Assembly: GCA_000242935.3 (NCBI GenBank)
Contig: CP007053.1
Location: 496,001-560,000, forward strand
DNA length: 64,000 bases
DNA from: Opitutaceae bacterium TAV5
GTDB lineage: Bacteria > Verrucomicrobiota > Verrucomicrobiia > Opitutales > Opitutaceae
Direction: 5' to 3'
Below are positions 5,454-56,043 of the stretch, in pieces (within the stretch, counting starts at the first letter, position 1; every line of letters begins with the position of its first letter). A model generated the notes under the pieces. It made no database searches. It saw only the letters and a program-made list of their open reading frames with translations, and was not told the DNA's origin. A program made the translations under genes and the position numbers.

Positions 5454-5726
5454 TCATCCCGGCGTCGTCGCCACCTCGAGCGCATCGAGATGCGCGAGCG
5501 CGGCGGCGCGATCCGCACCGCACATTTCCTGCGACGGACGCAGGCTCGCGCAGACGGCGGGGCGTTCCGGCCGGCCGAAAATCGCACAGCGCAAGTCGGG
5601 CAACAACTGCACACAGGGCACGCCCGCCGGCTTCCCGAACGGCATGCCCGGGATCGGTGTGCTGATCGACGGCGCGATGCAACATGCGCCGCAACCGGCG
5701 CGGCAGGACAACGAAGCGTCTGTCAC
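5454..5726 (-). CDS. YkgJ family Cys-cluster protein
   Basis: 90-residue protein of the YkgJ/CxxCxxCC family (UPF0153), small proteins thought to bind Zn or an Fe-S cluster through conserved cysteines. Visible motifs are CRAGCGACCIAPS, PGMPFGKPAG, CVQL, CAIFGRPERPAVC and PSQEMCG, which match the short E. coli YcgN/YkgJ-type relatives. The start is a GTG at 5726 overlapping the menE stop as GTGA, a classic translational-coupling overlap; there is no in-frame ATG close by. It is the last gene of the pyrD-menE-ykgJ run. Its role beside menE is unknown. Confidence 0.85.
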   Translation of the reverse strand: MTDASLSCRAGCGACCIAPSISTPIPGMPFGKPAGVPCVQLLPDLRCAIFGRPERPAVCASLRPSQEMCGADRAAALAHLDALEVATTPG

Positions 5727-7381
5727 GCGGCTTCTCCGGCAGCGTGGCGACGCAGCGCCTCGCGGTTGAGCTTGCCTTGCGCCGAGCGCGGCCAGGGCAT
5801 CACAGCCACGTAGCGGCGCGGACATTTGAACGGCGCCAGCTTGCCGGTCAGCGCCGCGCGCACGGCGGCGGCATCCACCGGAGGAAACGAGTCGTCCGCC
5901 GGATAACACGCCACCACCGCCTCGCCCCACCCGGGATCGGGCACGCCGATCACAGCCACGTCACCCGGGAAAAACCCCGTCGCCCGCAACGCCGCCTCGA
6001 CCTCCTGCGGGTTGACCTTTTCGCCTCCCGTGATGATCAGCGCATCGCGGCGTCCGGAAACATGCAGGCTGCCGGCCGCGTCGAACGAACCGGCGTCGCC
6101 GGTCTCCCAAGCGGCGCTTCGCGCCAGTTCGGAGTTCAGGGTTTCCGGTTCAGGGTTACCGGAAGATGCGACATCGCCGGTCTCCCGCCCCTCCTGCGCC
6201 CCGAACCCTGCACCCTGAACCCCGAACCCTGAACGCTGAACTCCCGTCGCGCTAGCGACGGCGCGCCAGCCGGGCCAGTATCCGTGAAACAAGGACGCCG
6301 AACGGATCGCGATGCGGTTGCCGCCGCCTCCATCCGCCATCAGGTCGATGCGCGCGTGCGGCATCGGGCGGCCGGCGCCGCGTCCGCCGGCGGCAAACTC
6401 CTCCGGCGTGAGCGCCGCCACCATCGCCGCCGTCTCTGTCATGCCATAAGAAAACGCCAGCGGCAGCCGCGCCGCCGCGCCCGCCTCGACCAGCGCCGGC
6501 CAGCTCGGGCCTCCCCCGATGAAGACGGCACGAAACCCGCGCAGCCACGCCAGCGCGGACTCGTCGGCGTTGTCCAGCAATCGCTGGAGCTGGGTCGGCA
6601 CGAGCGAAAGAAACGTGGCGGCGTTCGCAGCTACATTGTCGCCGGGAGCAGGGCGCTCCTCGCCGCGTTCGATGCGTTTCCAGTCGGCGTGCCGGTAGCT
6701 ACCGCCGGTCAACGCGCAGCGCATCCAGGCCATCAGGCCGCTGATGTGATGGAGCGGCAGGAGCCCGACCGCGTTGACCCGGCCCACGCCGAAGTGGCGG
6801 CAAAAACCGTCCACCGCTGCGGCCAGCGTTTGCCCGTCGTGGCGGGCGAGCTTGAGGTTGCCCGAGGAACCGCCGGTGGGGATGCAGAGCCAGCCGGAGT
6901 GGCACGGGCTTCCAGCCCGTGATGTGGCATGGGCATCCTTGCCCATGATTGCCGGACAGGGAGGGGGGACATTTGCGGCGCGGAGCGCCGTCCACGGGCT
7001 GGAAGCCCGTGCCACGAGAGGAAGCGATGGTTGAGCCGCGAGCGCGGCGAACTGCGCCCGCTCGCGTTCGCCCCAGGACGGGTCGGCGATAAAAACCGGA
7101 CGGCCGTCATCCGCGGCCACGGCGTCGGCCAGCGCGATGCGGAAGCGGAGCGGGTCACGTTCGTCGACGAGGTGAATTGCGGGAGCGGCGGCATTCCTGC
7201 CGCTGCGACGAGGCGCAACGCGCCTCGCCCCGATCTTCCCGGGAAGTTCATCCGCCCCCTGTCGGGTTGCCGGTCTTGTGGAGACACTGTCCGGCAAGGC
7301 AGCGGCAGGAATGCCGCCGCTCCCCGGGCAATCTCTCCGGATGCTCTCCTGCAACAGCCGTCCGAGTTCCGCGCGCGTCAT
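5723..7381 (-). CDS. menE: MenE-like o-succinylbenzoate-CoA ligase with repeat insertions
   Basis: 552-residue AMP-forming acyl-CoA ligase, best matching MenE of menaquinone synthesis. Core motifs are PTGGSSGN (phosphate loop), LPLHHISGLMAWMR, SYGMTETAAM, ETGDAGSF, GRRDALIITGGEKVNPQEVE and the C-terminal GKLNREAL with the catalytic Lys. The ATG at 7381 has an AGGAG eight bases upstream, which decides against a longer frame starting at 7471. The gene is about 110-130 residues longer than typical MenE because three repeat blocks sit inside it: 7181-7324, 6899-7015 and 6131-6244, each a multiple of three bases long by my boundaries. It lies 25 bases after pyrD. Other men genes are not in view, so substrate is inferred, and activity despite the insertions is unproven. 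Confidence 0.82.
   Translation of the reverse strand: MTRAELGRLLQESIRRDCPGSGGIPAAALPDSVSTRPATRQGADELPGKIGARRVAPRRSGRNAAAPAIHLVDERDPLRFRIALADAVAADDGRPVFIADPSWGERERAQFAALAAQPSLPLVARASSPWTALRAANVPPPCPAIMGKDAHATSRAGSPCHSGWLCIPTGGSSGNLKLARHDGQTLAAAVDGFCRHFGVGRVNAVGLLPLHHISGLMAWMRCALTGGSYRHADWKRIERGEERPAPGDNVAANAATFLSLVPTQLQRLLDNADESALAWLRGFRAVFIGGGPSWPALVEAGAAARLPLAFSYGMTETAAMVAALTPEEFAAGGRGAGRPMPHARIDLMADGGGGNRIAIRSASLFHGYWPGWRAVASATGVQRSGFGVQGAGFGAQEGRETGDVASSGNPEPETLNSELARSAAWETGDAGSFDAAGSLHVSGRRDALIITGGEKVNPQEVEAALRATGFFPGDVAVIGVPDPGWGEAVVACYPADDSFPPVDAAAVRAALTGKLAPFKCPRRYVAVMPWPRSAQGKLNREALRRHAAGEAA
6131..6244. repeat. In-frame inverted repeat of TTCAGGGTT type inside menE
   Basis: The block begins GGAGTTCAGGGTTTCC and ends in tandem CCCTGAAC / CCGAACCCTGAA motifs with a final CTGAACTCC, so the two ends are inverted relative to each other. 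About 114 bases (38 codons). In the MenE protein it encodes a low-complexity Gly/Gln/Phe stretch just before the conserved ETGD motif, and a second copy of ETGD appears inside the insert. This is where normal MenE passes directly from the GYW-type strand to ETGD. Confidence 0.7.
6899..7015. repeat. In-frame GTGGC-type REP-like array inside menE
   Basis: Two plus-oriented units (GTGGCACGGGCTTCCAGCCC and GTGGCATGGGCATCCTTGCC) followed by an inverted unit ending GCCCGTGCCAC. Total 117 bases, 39 codons, with no stop in the menE frame. It lies directly upstream (in protein terms, N-terminal) of the IPTGGSSG phosphate loop. The same units form intergenic arrays at 20943-21098, 42642-43012 and 53433-53738. 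Confidence 0.85.
7181..7324. repeat. In-frame inverted repeat of GGCGGCATTCCTGCCGCTG type inside menE
   Basis: Perfect 24-bp arms: GGGAGCGGCGGCATTCCTGC+CGCT at 7181-7204 and its complement at 7301-7324, with a CGAGGCG/CGCCTCG sub-hairpin next to the left arm. Total 144 bases, 48 codons, open in the menE frame. The same core recurs at 38408-38550 between galK and the AAA ATPase gene. Confidence 0.82.
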
Positions 7382-20942: not shown

Positions 20943-21146
20943 GTGGCACGGCCATCCTGGCCGTGGACGGCGCGAAAGCGCCGCAACGTGGCATGGGCTT
21001 CCAGCCCATGATTTGGTTCCCGGCTGGCAATGTTCACGGGCTGGAAGCCCGTGCCACTGCGGGAGAGGCAACGCACACGGGCAAGGAGCCCGTGCCACGC
21101 GCGAGCGTCCCGTCCGCCAGCGGAGCGGCAGCATTCCCGGCGCTCC
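20943..21146. repeat. GTGGC-type REP-like array between tyrS and recA
   Basis: Two plus units (GTGGCACGGCCATCCTGGCC at 20943; GTGGCATGGGCTTCCAGCCC at 20988) are followed by two minus units (CACGGGCTGGAAGCCCGTGC about 21035-21057; CACGGGCAAGGAGCCCGTGC about 21076-21098). A degenerate GGAGCGGCAGCATTCC piece lies at 21120-21136. The block fills the 245-base gap between the convergent tyrS and recA genes and has head-to-head symmetry. Confidence 0.85.
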
Positions 21147-38407: not shown

Positions 38408-38550
38408 CGGAGCGGCGGCATTCCTGCCGCTGCGACGAGGCGCGTCAGCGCCTCGCCCAGTGCCTCGCCGCCCGAACCGGCGACGCATTGCGTCGTCAGC
38501 AGCGGCAGGTACCGAGGCCGAAGGCCGACAGCTTGCCATGCCGCCGCTCC
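38408..38550. repeat. GGCGGCATTCCTGCCGCTG-type repeat upstream of the ATPase gene
   Basis: Starts GGAGCGGCGGCATTCCTGCC, followed by CGCTGCGACGAGGCGCGTCA, and has a degraded inverted copy ending CATGCCGCCGCTCC at 38537-38550. The inside contains CGACGCATTGCGTCG and other small palindromes. The core is identical to that in menE (7181-7324). Occupies most of the 378-base gap between galK and the ATPase gene. Confidence 0.75.
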
Positions 38551-42641: not shown

Positions 42642-43012
42642 GTGGCGCGGGCGTCCCGCCCGCTCCCACTCTTTCTCGTTCTCTCACTCTTTCTTGTGCT
42701 GCGGCGCGTCGTGCGAGTGCCGGAGCAGGAGAATGATCGATCAGGAGAAAGAGAAGGAGAACGAACCCGGACCGGAGAAAGAGTACGAGAACGATTCCGG
42801 CGTGGCACGGGCATCCTTGCCCGTGAGCGTTGCCTCTCCGCGCCGTCCGGAAACAAACCGGCGGCGTTTTGCTGCCGATCCGTCCACGGCCAGGATGGCC
42901 GTGCCACGCCGGAGGCGGGCGGGACGCCCGCTGAACACGGGCTGGAAGCCCGTGCCACACAATCCGGCGGCTTCGCCGTCTGCGGGCGGGACGCCCGCGC
43001 CACGACGCTCCG
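42642..43012. repeat. GTGGC-type REP-like array with purine/pyrimidine tracts
   Basis: Plus units at 42642 (GTGGCGCGGGCGTCCCGCCC) and about 42802 (GTGGCACGGGCATCCTTGCC) and minus units at about 42885-43012 (CACGGCCAGGATGGCCGTGC, GCGGGCGGGACGCCCGC, ACACGGGCTGGAAGCCCGTG, GCGGGCGGGACGCCCGCGCC). Between 42665 and 42795 a pyrimidine run (CACTCTTTCTCGTTCTCTCA) faces a purine run (GGAGAAAGAGAAGGAGAACG), an inverted pair of a second family. The 445-base gap 42627-43071 holds nothing else. Confidence 0.85.
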
Positions 43013-48786: not shown

Positions 48787-52358
<3,572 letters not shown>

Positions 52359-52362
<4 letters not shown>

Positions 52363-53432: not shown

Positions 53433-53738
53433 AGTGGCGCGGGCGTCCCGCCCGCAACGTGGCATGGGCATCCTGCCCATGATTCCGGCGTGGCACGGGC
53501 TTCCAGCCCGTGGACGTTGCCTCTCCGCGTGGCACGGGCATCCTTGCCCGTGGACGGCGCGCAGCGCCGCAAAGTGGCATGGGCTTCCAGCCCATGATTC
53601 CGGGGAGGCGCGGGCATCCCTGCCCGCGCCTCCCGCGCCACTTCTGCCGGGAGGCAACGCTCACGGGCAAGATGCCCGTGCCACTCCGGCACACGGCCAG
53701 GATGGCCGTGCCACGCGCGGGCGTCCCGCCCGCATCAC
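53433..53738. repeat. GTGGC-type REP-like array between PPIase and GH35 genes
   Basis: A block of roughly nine units: plus units GTGGCGCGGGCGTCCCGCCC (53434), GTGGCATGGGCATCCTGCCC, GTGGCACGGGCTTCCAGCCC, GTGGCACGGGCATCCTTGCC, GTGGCATGGGCTTCCAGCCC, a GGCGCGGGCATCCCTGCCCG unit, then inverted units CACGGGCAAGATGCCCGTGC and CACGGCCAGGATGGCCGTGC, and a final GCGCGGGCGTCCCGCCCG. Spacers contain GACGTTGCCTCTCCGC. This is the longest array in the window and fills the gap between convergent genes. Confidence 0.9.
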
Positions 53739-55986: not shown

Positions 55987-56043
55987 GTGGTGCGGGCGTC
56001 CCGCCCGCATCCGGTTCCAATACGGGCGGGACGGCAGCGCCAC
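55987..56043. repeat. Paired inverted repeat units between GH35 and SGNH genes
   Basis: GTGGTGCGGGCGTCCCGCCC at 55987 is answered by GGGCGGGACGGCAGCGCCAC ending 56042, a small head-to-head pair of the GTGGC family in the 78-base space between two genes of the same operon. Confidence 0.75.

Follow-up and report, generated by a model that had tools for sequence, protein, structure and literature searches.

GTGG-tagged REP units inside menE and mfd of Opitutaceae bacterium TAV5 and a REP-linked transposase probably translated as part of MenF

We have extended a preliminary description of short palindromic repeats inside genes of Opitutaceae bacterium TAV5, an inhabitant of the termite gut, made on a 64,000-nt stretch of contig CP007053.1 (positions 496,001 to 560,000; the whole stretch is referred to as the window), by investigating the repeats, the genes which carry them and the transposase linked to them. 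The sequence evidence makes it probable that the repeats are GTGG-tagged repetitive extragenic palindromic (REP) units of the GTAG superfamily, belonging to a system of REPs and a REP-associated tyrosine transposase (RAYT), and that a RAYT nested in menF is translated with its host and spreads the units found in menE and mfd. The RAYT would be translated within the host enzyme as one of its domains, connected by disordered, REP-coded linkers, and would still process REP DNA, spreading the units seen in the two genes, while selection on the host gene would preserve the reading frame of the insert. The flanking REPs would serve both spread and loss, a REP-REP deletion leaving a REP-only scar. 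As part of the same reading, and with the same confidence, intragenic copies are taken to survive when in frame within tolerant linkers, as in menE, mfd and ispG. We lean slightly towards a wider proposal, in which this RAYT clade is a start-less and stop-less cassette that exists largely as an in-frame host domain, is expressed only through the host, moves as REP-RAYT-REP and can be lost by frameshift or nonsense mutation only at a cost to the host.

In menE, GTGGCACGGGCTTCCAGCCCGTG is found twice exactly, at 6899-6921 on the forward strand and as a 100% complementary copy at 6993-7015 on the reverse strand, both within one array and both where the preliminary description had placed them. An additional unit with a 4-nt loop, at 6924-6947, lies between the two. 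REPs in TAV5 consist of a GTGG tag, an 8-bp stem and a TCY loop, and the GTGG tags of the menE array are oriented outward. A 21-nt core allowing up to 3 mismatches matches 9 sites in the window versus 0 in 100 shuffles, and 287 sites in the 7,317,842-bp chromosome versus 1 for the pattern read backwards. The proposed identity as REPs, or bacterial interspersed mosaic elements, is borne out by the tagged hairpin structure and the high copy number in the TAV5 genome, and the units have the features of GTAG-type REPs, namely a tagged hairpin of 20-40 bp, high copy number with dimers and clusters and a mostly intergenic location. The features of the two host genes are as follows.

6899 to 6921, forward strand: REP unit with GTGG tag, 8-bp stem and TCC loop (core match, structure search)
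6924 to 6947, forward strand: REP unit with a 4-nt loop (sequence)
6993 to 7015, reverse strand: inverted REP unit (core match, structure search)
6899 to 7015, reverse strand: 117-bp REP array, 39 codons of menE, in the variable linker preceding GWLCIPTGGSS (alignment)
5723 to 7381, reverse strand: menE, coding for o-succinylbenzoate-CoA ligase (552 aa, start ATG at 7381), with three in-frame inserts (NCBIfam, Pfam, alignment)
7178 to 7327, reverse strand: second menE insert, near the N terminus, an inverted pair with the core GCGGCGGCATTCCTGCCGC at 7185-7203 and 7302-7320 (alignment)
6116 to 6244, reverse strand: third menE insert, 43 codons, reading GVQRSGFGVQGAGFGAQ...NPEPETLNSELARS (alignment)
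48853 to 52362, forward strand: mfd (transcription-repair coupling factor), start as called by the gene finder; carries a single REP unit
51839 to 51861, forward strand: single in-frame mfd REP unit, the variant GTGGCGCGGGCGTCCCGCCCGCT, read GAGVPPA

The array and the mfd unit had both been described as in-frame insertions, and alignment agrees, as relatives do not share the inserted residues. All three menE inserts are specific to TAV5 in an alignment with 14 MenE relatives, and the GAGVPPA unit, which lies within a variable linker, is missing from 17/17 aligned Mfd relatives. The mfd unit is also lacking in G005 (G, L and g numbers are our handles for genomes, loci and a genus), which is of the same genus as TAV5 and has an Mfd 88% identical over the part searched; a MenE match at E 1e-30 was not found in G005, a genome given as 99% complete. 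TAV5 MenE scores below the curated cut-offs of NF005660 and TIGR01923 and above those of PF00501 and PF13193. The mfd label is that of the preliminary description and presumably correct, agreeing with the residues. The 43-codon menE insert resembles a different low-complexity repeat.

The linked IS200-like RAYT that the preliminary description proposed looking for was found, nested in menF, a gene for an enzyme of vitamin K synthesis. Six Y1_Tnp matches are present in the TAV5 genome, and only one has these REPs nearby when 6-8 kb around each is examined; in 6-7 kb around each of the other five, no such unit was detected at up to 6 mismatches. Three REP units precede this RAYT and six follow it, all in one 800-codon open frame ordered MenF-N, REPs, RAYT, REPs, MenF-C. 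Stop codons are absent from both sides of the RAYT, and no ATG lies within 45 codons upstream of it, which does not fit an independent gene with a start and a stop of its own. The frame matches TIGR00543 (isochorismate synthase) at 531-795 with 315.5 bits against a cut-off of 224.75 and is the sole match over the cut-off in the genome, two others falling below. The RAYT domain matches E. coli TnpA-REP (4er8, E 1.3e-10), and PF01797 scores 31.3 on the frame, above its cut-off of 23. An AlphaFold2 model of the 772-aa fusion, built with 44 sequences, had a mean predicted local distance difference test score (pLDDT) of 80.6 and a predicted template modelling score of 0.64, with MenF-N, RAYT and MenF-C mostly at pLDDT 85-97 and the REP-coded linkers at 185-239 and 427-496 below 50. 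Both folds are thus predicted, joined by disordered REP-coded linkers. In Foldseek, the alignment with 3bzn, the MenF of E. coli, spans the insert (E 1e-25; TM 0.82, relative to target length), and 2eua also aligned (TM 0.80, root-mean-square deviation 8.9 Å). Y1_Tnp frames of about 350 aa are also present at G000:C1:223807-224001 (L041) and 6690966-6691151 (L042); they do not have this REP nearby and are not among the control-class matches, defined below, in this genome.

The breadth of nesting was investigated with the 192-aa RAYT as query and, as control, a different Y1 class from TAV5 (342 aa). RAYT matches occur in 100/252 Opitutaceae at E up to 1e-10 and in 39/387 Verrucomicrobiota genomes at E up to 1e-40. 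When the best candidates per genome were scored across these 387 (up to eight for the RAYT search, up to five for the control, at the same E), frames of at least 400 aa contained 32/45 RAYT matches versus 5/141 control matches, and only 1/141 control matches lay in a frame of at least 550 aa. Nesting is less common in Opitutaceae, where 15/38 RAYT matches at E up to 1e-40 lie in frames of at least 400 aa, three of the 15 looking spurious and one having an inner stop. A set of 79 distinct loci, the strongest matches rather than a random draw and freed of eight duplicates before a tree was built, comprises 36 nested, 37 stand-alone and 6 terminal or uncertain RAYTs, the last (L089, L123, L132, L137, L145 and L154, with L145 outside the Pfam scan) being kept apart from the 36. 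The long frames of L085, L096 and L099 were judged by eye to be probably spurious and counted as stand-alone; the Pfam scan of L085 gave Y1_Tnp only.

The nested loci span 19 kinds of host. A Pfam scan of 40 frames and the TAV5 frame identified ValS (3), LeuS, AlaS, TsaC/Sua5, IspG (2), MetH (2), MenF and DUF4080 radical SAM proteins (4), together with a creatininase, an adenosine deaminase, a GH38 protein, an FAD oxidoreductase, an NspC-like decarboxylase, a PFL-like protein and several restriction or methylase enzymes, the names ValS, LeuS, TsaC and NspC being our interpretation of Pfam hits and residues. In 27/36 loci the RAYT is bordered by recognisable host sequence both before and after it, 19 of them by host Pfam hits on both sides or one hit spanning the RAYT (the upstream hit being weak in L141 and L150) and eight (five MenF, three DUF4080) by Pfam on one side and alignment to relatives on the other. 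Ten of the 36 lie in restriction or DNA-methylase enzymes (L092, L105, L112, L115, L130, L135, L136, L141, L150 and L151); defence genes may be favoured hosts or merely large, tolerant ones. The frame L102:121-2892 carries the nested RAYT with a Cas_NE0113 domain followed by adenosine deaminase, a host which we take to resemble a CRISPR-linked CARF-deaminase.

The nested RAYTs appear intact. Both HUH histidines and the Tyr of xYxxxNP, which we take to be the catalytic residue, are kept in 36/36 nested, 6/6 terminal and 36/37 stand-alone loci, the one exception reading Gln for the first His, and these positions line up with those of 4er8. In the RAYT part of 12 nested pairs, the proportion of non-synonymous differences (pN) is 0.14-0.36 and that of synonymous differences (pS) 0.69-0.84. 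The low pN relative to pS indicates that the nested RAYT is kept as a protein, and on these alignments the RAYT part is under purifying selection. In most pairs the RAYT exceeds its host in synonymous divergence, and G+C content at third codon positions is lower in the RAYT in 34/36; nothing is concluded from the difference in divergence, as a weaker codon bias in the RAYT could cause it. No ATG is found within 45 codons upstream in 27/36 nested RAYTs. Hairpins stand on both sides of 35/36 nested and 27/37 stand-alone RAYTs versus 23/291 control windows, and 12-mers are shared across the insert in 30/36 and 32/37, respectively. Flanking by the REP family of the RAYT's own genome was encountered in TAV5 and G079. 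The RAYT core is fully open in another frame in only 4/36 nested cases; same-frame nesting therefore follows from host-gene selection, given a stop-free insert.

Purifying selection on the RAYT part, and the use of the same linker in several genera (MenF) or several genomes (DUF4080), would also be consistent with a RAYT that has become a functional part of its host enzyme through domestication, rather than a passenger held by the host gene. We consider domestication unlikely, since the hosts are functionally unrelated, many close host relatives have no RAYT, and the tree contains apparent host switches, for example MenF L079, which groups with the restriction enzyme L105 (98/90). The label 'nested' changes at least 7 times on well supported branches and 17 times at the fewest overall. 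Copies in one host gene often group together, as for ValS (L110 and L111), MetH, IspG and DUF4080. The four other MenF-RAYTs also group (82/88, which is not among the well supported branches); a single old insertion behind all MenF-RAYTs is not supported, with L079 beside L105 and L073 unresolved on the tree.

The nested RAYT can be followed among MenF relatives. The fusion query matched in 150/150 Opitutaceae searched, mostly by the MenF half alone among the matches listed, and three genomes besides TAV5 match across the insert among the same matches. A RAYT-only search added G235 and G173, giving MenF-RAYT in six Opitutaceae genera, that of G173 being cut by a contig end. Linker length was obtained for 22 of 30 MenF loci examined, the linker pattern giving no length for the other 8, the fusion L046 among them; three fusions have linkers of 252-318 residues and 19 others of 18-58, three of which (L049, L052 and L057) appear by eye to be REP-coded. 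In G005, the MenF linker has REP-like codons and the RAYT is absent there.

Such REP-like linker codons without a RAYT, and the published occurrence of REPs within Opitutaceae genes in the covered parts of PMC3733652, would suit a simpler account, in which the units are ordinary intragenic REPs as in Opitutus terrae and the menF RAYT is one chance in-frame insertion in decay. We regard this as quite improbable: 36 nested cases in 19 kinds of host all keep HUH and Tyr, synonymous change in the RAYT part is near saturation while non-synonymous change is low, MenF-RAYT recurs in six genera with intact frames and catalytic residues across genera, and the control transposase class is almost never found in a long frame.

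Different states of one linker were observed in DUF4080 genes of genus g106, where 21 of 28 genomes have a match and 18 DUF4080 loci were translated. This linker is clean in seven (L327, L328, L331, L333, L335, L336 and L337), REP-only by eye in five (L323-L326 and L332) and REP-RAYT-REP in five (L320, L321, L322, L329 and L334); the DUF4080 anchor motif was not found in L330, and the DNA of 11 g106 loci was compared side by side. Empty, REP-only and REP-RAYT-REP states are as expected if the cassette enters, or leaves through REP-REP deletion, the direction being possible either way. The linker of L334 (G608) contains a long tandem run of REP-coded RQDVGETVPPASCGQHS repeats. In L336 (G617) and L337 (G614), the usual linker is clean, and the RAYT lies elsewhere in the DUF4080 gene, upstream of that linker. 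Similarly, TAV5 ispG, identified by its residues, has REPs (L241) at the linker which, by eye, holds the RAYT in IspG of G543 and G474.

A degenerate unit was used to compare REP abundance between genomes. Its copies number 14, 23, 58, 75, 95 and 267 in the six genomes with a MenF-RAYT, and 18 of 21 comparison genomes, hand-chosen and mostly congeners, have 0-3 (Fisher p 0.0003, uncorrected for kinship or genome choice). Allowing up to 1 mismatch, the exact TAV5 unit occurs in 14/252 Opitutaceae, with 162 copies in TAV5, 69 in G079, 14 in G102 and 0 in G005.

Several observations weigh against the proposed system. NF047646 (REP_Tyr_transpos) at 342-444 of the menF frame scores 74.1 bits, under its cut-off of 80, and the 3bzn match across the insert has a root-mean-square deviation of 13.1 Å at 17% identity. 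Stand-alone RAYTs make up 37 of the 79 rows, such that nesting is not obligatory; an ATG stands no more than 45 codons upstream of 9/36 nested RAYTs, and starts other than ATG are possible as well. A host domain was recognised on one side only in nine of the 36 nested loci (L075, L092, L108, L112, L130, L135, L136, L144 and L153), four of which have a short or contig-cut side. The remaining three comparison genomes, without a known MenF-RAYT, have 11, 30 and 65 REP copies; two of these, G016 and G102, have RAYT matches elsewhere, and G133 is outside the 100 genomes in which a match was obtained. G005 has four RAYT matches and one REP copy, and other RAYT-bearing genomes are nearly without this unit, indicating that it accompanies only part of the clade's RAYTs and not the matches of other subclades. 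Many of the relatives, including all 29 named ones, are metagenome bins, TAV5 being a complete isolate genome.

Two further alternatives are weaker. An in-frame domain inside conserved enzymes could in principle be removed after translation or transcription in the manner of an intein or intron, which we consider very improbable: the Pfam hits of the fusions include no intein domain (Rfam was not searched for introns), a HINT splicing domain giving no hit at E up to 0.001 (0.01 for the TAV5 frame) in the 41 frames scanned, and REP-only inserts contain no domain at all. That repeats and fusions are artefacts of assembly or annotation, as the metagenomic origin of the named relatives might suggest, is scarcely credible, as TAV5 is assembled in two contigs with the chromosome length published in the covered part of PMC4358385 and the fusions are open over hundreds of codons and recur in many genomes.

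The preliminary description also called for a count of copies in genes and gaps and a test of reading-frame bias; the count showed depletion in genes, and frame numbers were too small for a claim of bias. Structural units, defined by a GTGG tag (up to 1 mismatch), an 8-bp stem (up to 1 mismatch) and a TCY loop, were counted in 2.0 Mb sampled evenly, equal to 27% of the chromosome, with a codon-usage gene finder written for the analysis. The sample contains 141 units versus 5 in the reversed sequence, in 79 REP clusters, 35 of which comprise 2-5 units. With a coding fraction of 0.83, 15/79 clusters lie inside called genes and 64/79 do not, an under-representation in genes of about four-fold, as expected if host-gene selection filters insertions; such depletion is common among REPs in general. 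A stricter test, in which the local flanks must share one frame and the sequence be open through, is passed by 9 clusters, of which 6 look like true REPs and three (L191, L201 and L215) like chance matches. The intragenic units use all six frames (9, 6, 3, 3, 2 and 1; 24 non-independent units in 13 clusters, including the three chance-like ones). L225 and L233, in which the strand or frame of the flanks disagreed with the called gene, were excluded from this frame count and included in the 15/79.

Six-frame openness of the unit had been proposed as an adaptation for entering genes. The 23-nt unit is indeed without a stop in all six frames, but the whole 117-bp menE array is open in only 4/6, and the adaptive interpretation was rejected. 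Shuffling the letters of the unit leaves all six frames open in 54% of cases, or in 62% when the palindrome is preserved; among 23-mers of the window, 68% of those with equal GC content and 48% in a sample drawn from all of them are open. Being usual for GC-rich 23-mers, openness does not point to an adaptation.

Intragenic REPs and the GTGG tag are already known from O. terrae. The covered parts of PMC3733652 describe its GTAG-20 REPs as having the tag mutated to GTGG in most elements, with some elements inside genes, and GTAG REPs as often close to RAYTs. GTAG-20 elements resemble the TAV5 units as short tagged hairpins in inverted pairs and high copy number, some of them genic, although in a different genome and with a likeness of description and tag rather than of consensus sequence; an in-frame RAYT nested in a host gene is not mentioned in those parts (PMC3733652). 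Rickettsia palindromic elements are likewise palindromic repeats in frame inside genes in the same source (PMC3733652), likened here by description only, but they belong to another organism, and in TAV5 the likely mobilising enzyme is itself nested. With RAYT/TnpA-REP (E. coli 4er8, NF047646, PF01797), the TAV5 RAYT has HUH, Tyr and REP flanks in common, and differs in being an internal domain of a host enzyme with stop-free sides and, in its nested relatives, usually without a close ATG. Inteins with homing endonucleases also place an enzyme domain in conserved proteins, at fixed sites and with empty alleles in relatives; the TAV5 insert differs in that no splicing domain was found and that it apparently remains part of the protein. 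The literature searched, which largely excluded subscription papers and was partially covered, gave no account of in-frame nesting of RAYTs within host genes or enzymes; in the covered part of PMC6006769, a few unexpectedly long proteins were discarded as gene fusions or annotation errors.

If the wider proposal is true, a nested cassette without start or stop would explain how single-copy RAYTs persist; to our knowledge, this persistence, along with the continued spread of REPs, is an open question in the field. Survival and expression of a RAYT nested in menF, ValS, LeuS, IspG or MetH would depend on a gene that is hardly dispensable. Nesting would also constitute a natural, recurrent route by which a whole enzyme domain is put into another enzyme through disordered repeat-coded linkers, and nested RAYTs would mark linkers tolerant of domain insertion.

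The window as a whole contains 17 structural units, 3 of them genic (2 in menE, 1 in mfd) and 14 between called genes. The latter form four clusters, three of them between convergent genes.

20943 to 21096, no strand assigned: intergenic REP cluster between convergent genes, with 3 structural units at 20943-21057 plus, at 21076-21096, a unit with 3 mismatches
42642 to 43003, no strand assigned: intergenic REP cluster of 4 structural units between convergent genes
53434 to 53714, no strand assigned: intergenic REP cluster of 6 structural units between convergent genes
55987 to 56009, forward strand: single intergenic unit between codirectional genes

A second REP type, with the core GCGGCGGCATTCCTGCCGC, occurs in the window at 7185-7203 and 7302-7320, within the second menE insert, and at 38412-38430. 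Its 16-mers are the most frequent in the genome sample, with 43 copies in 2.0 Mb.

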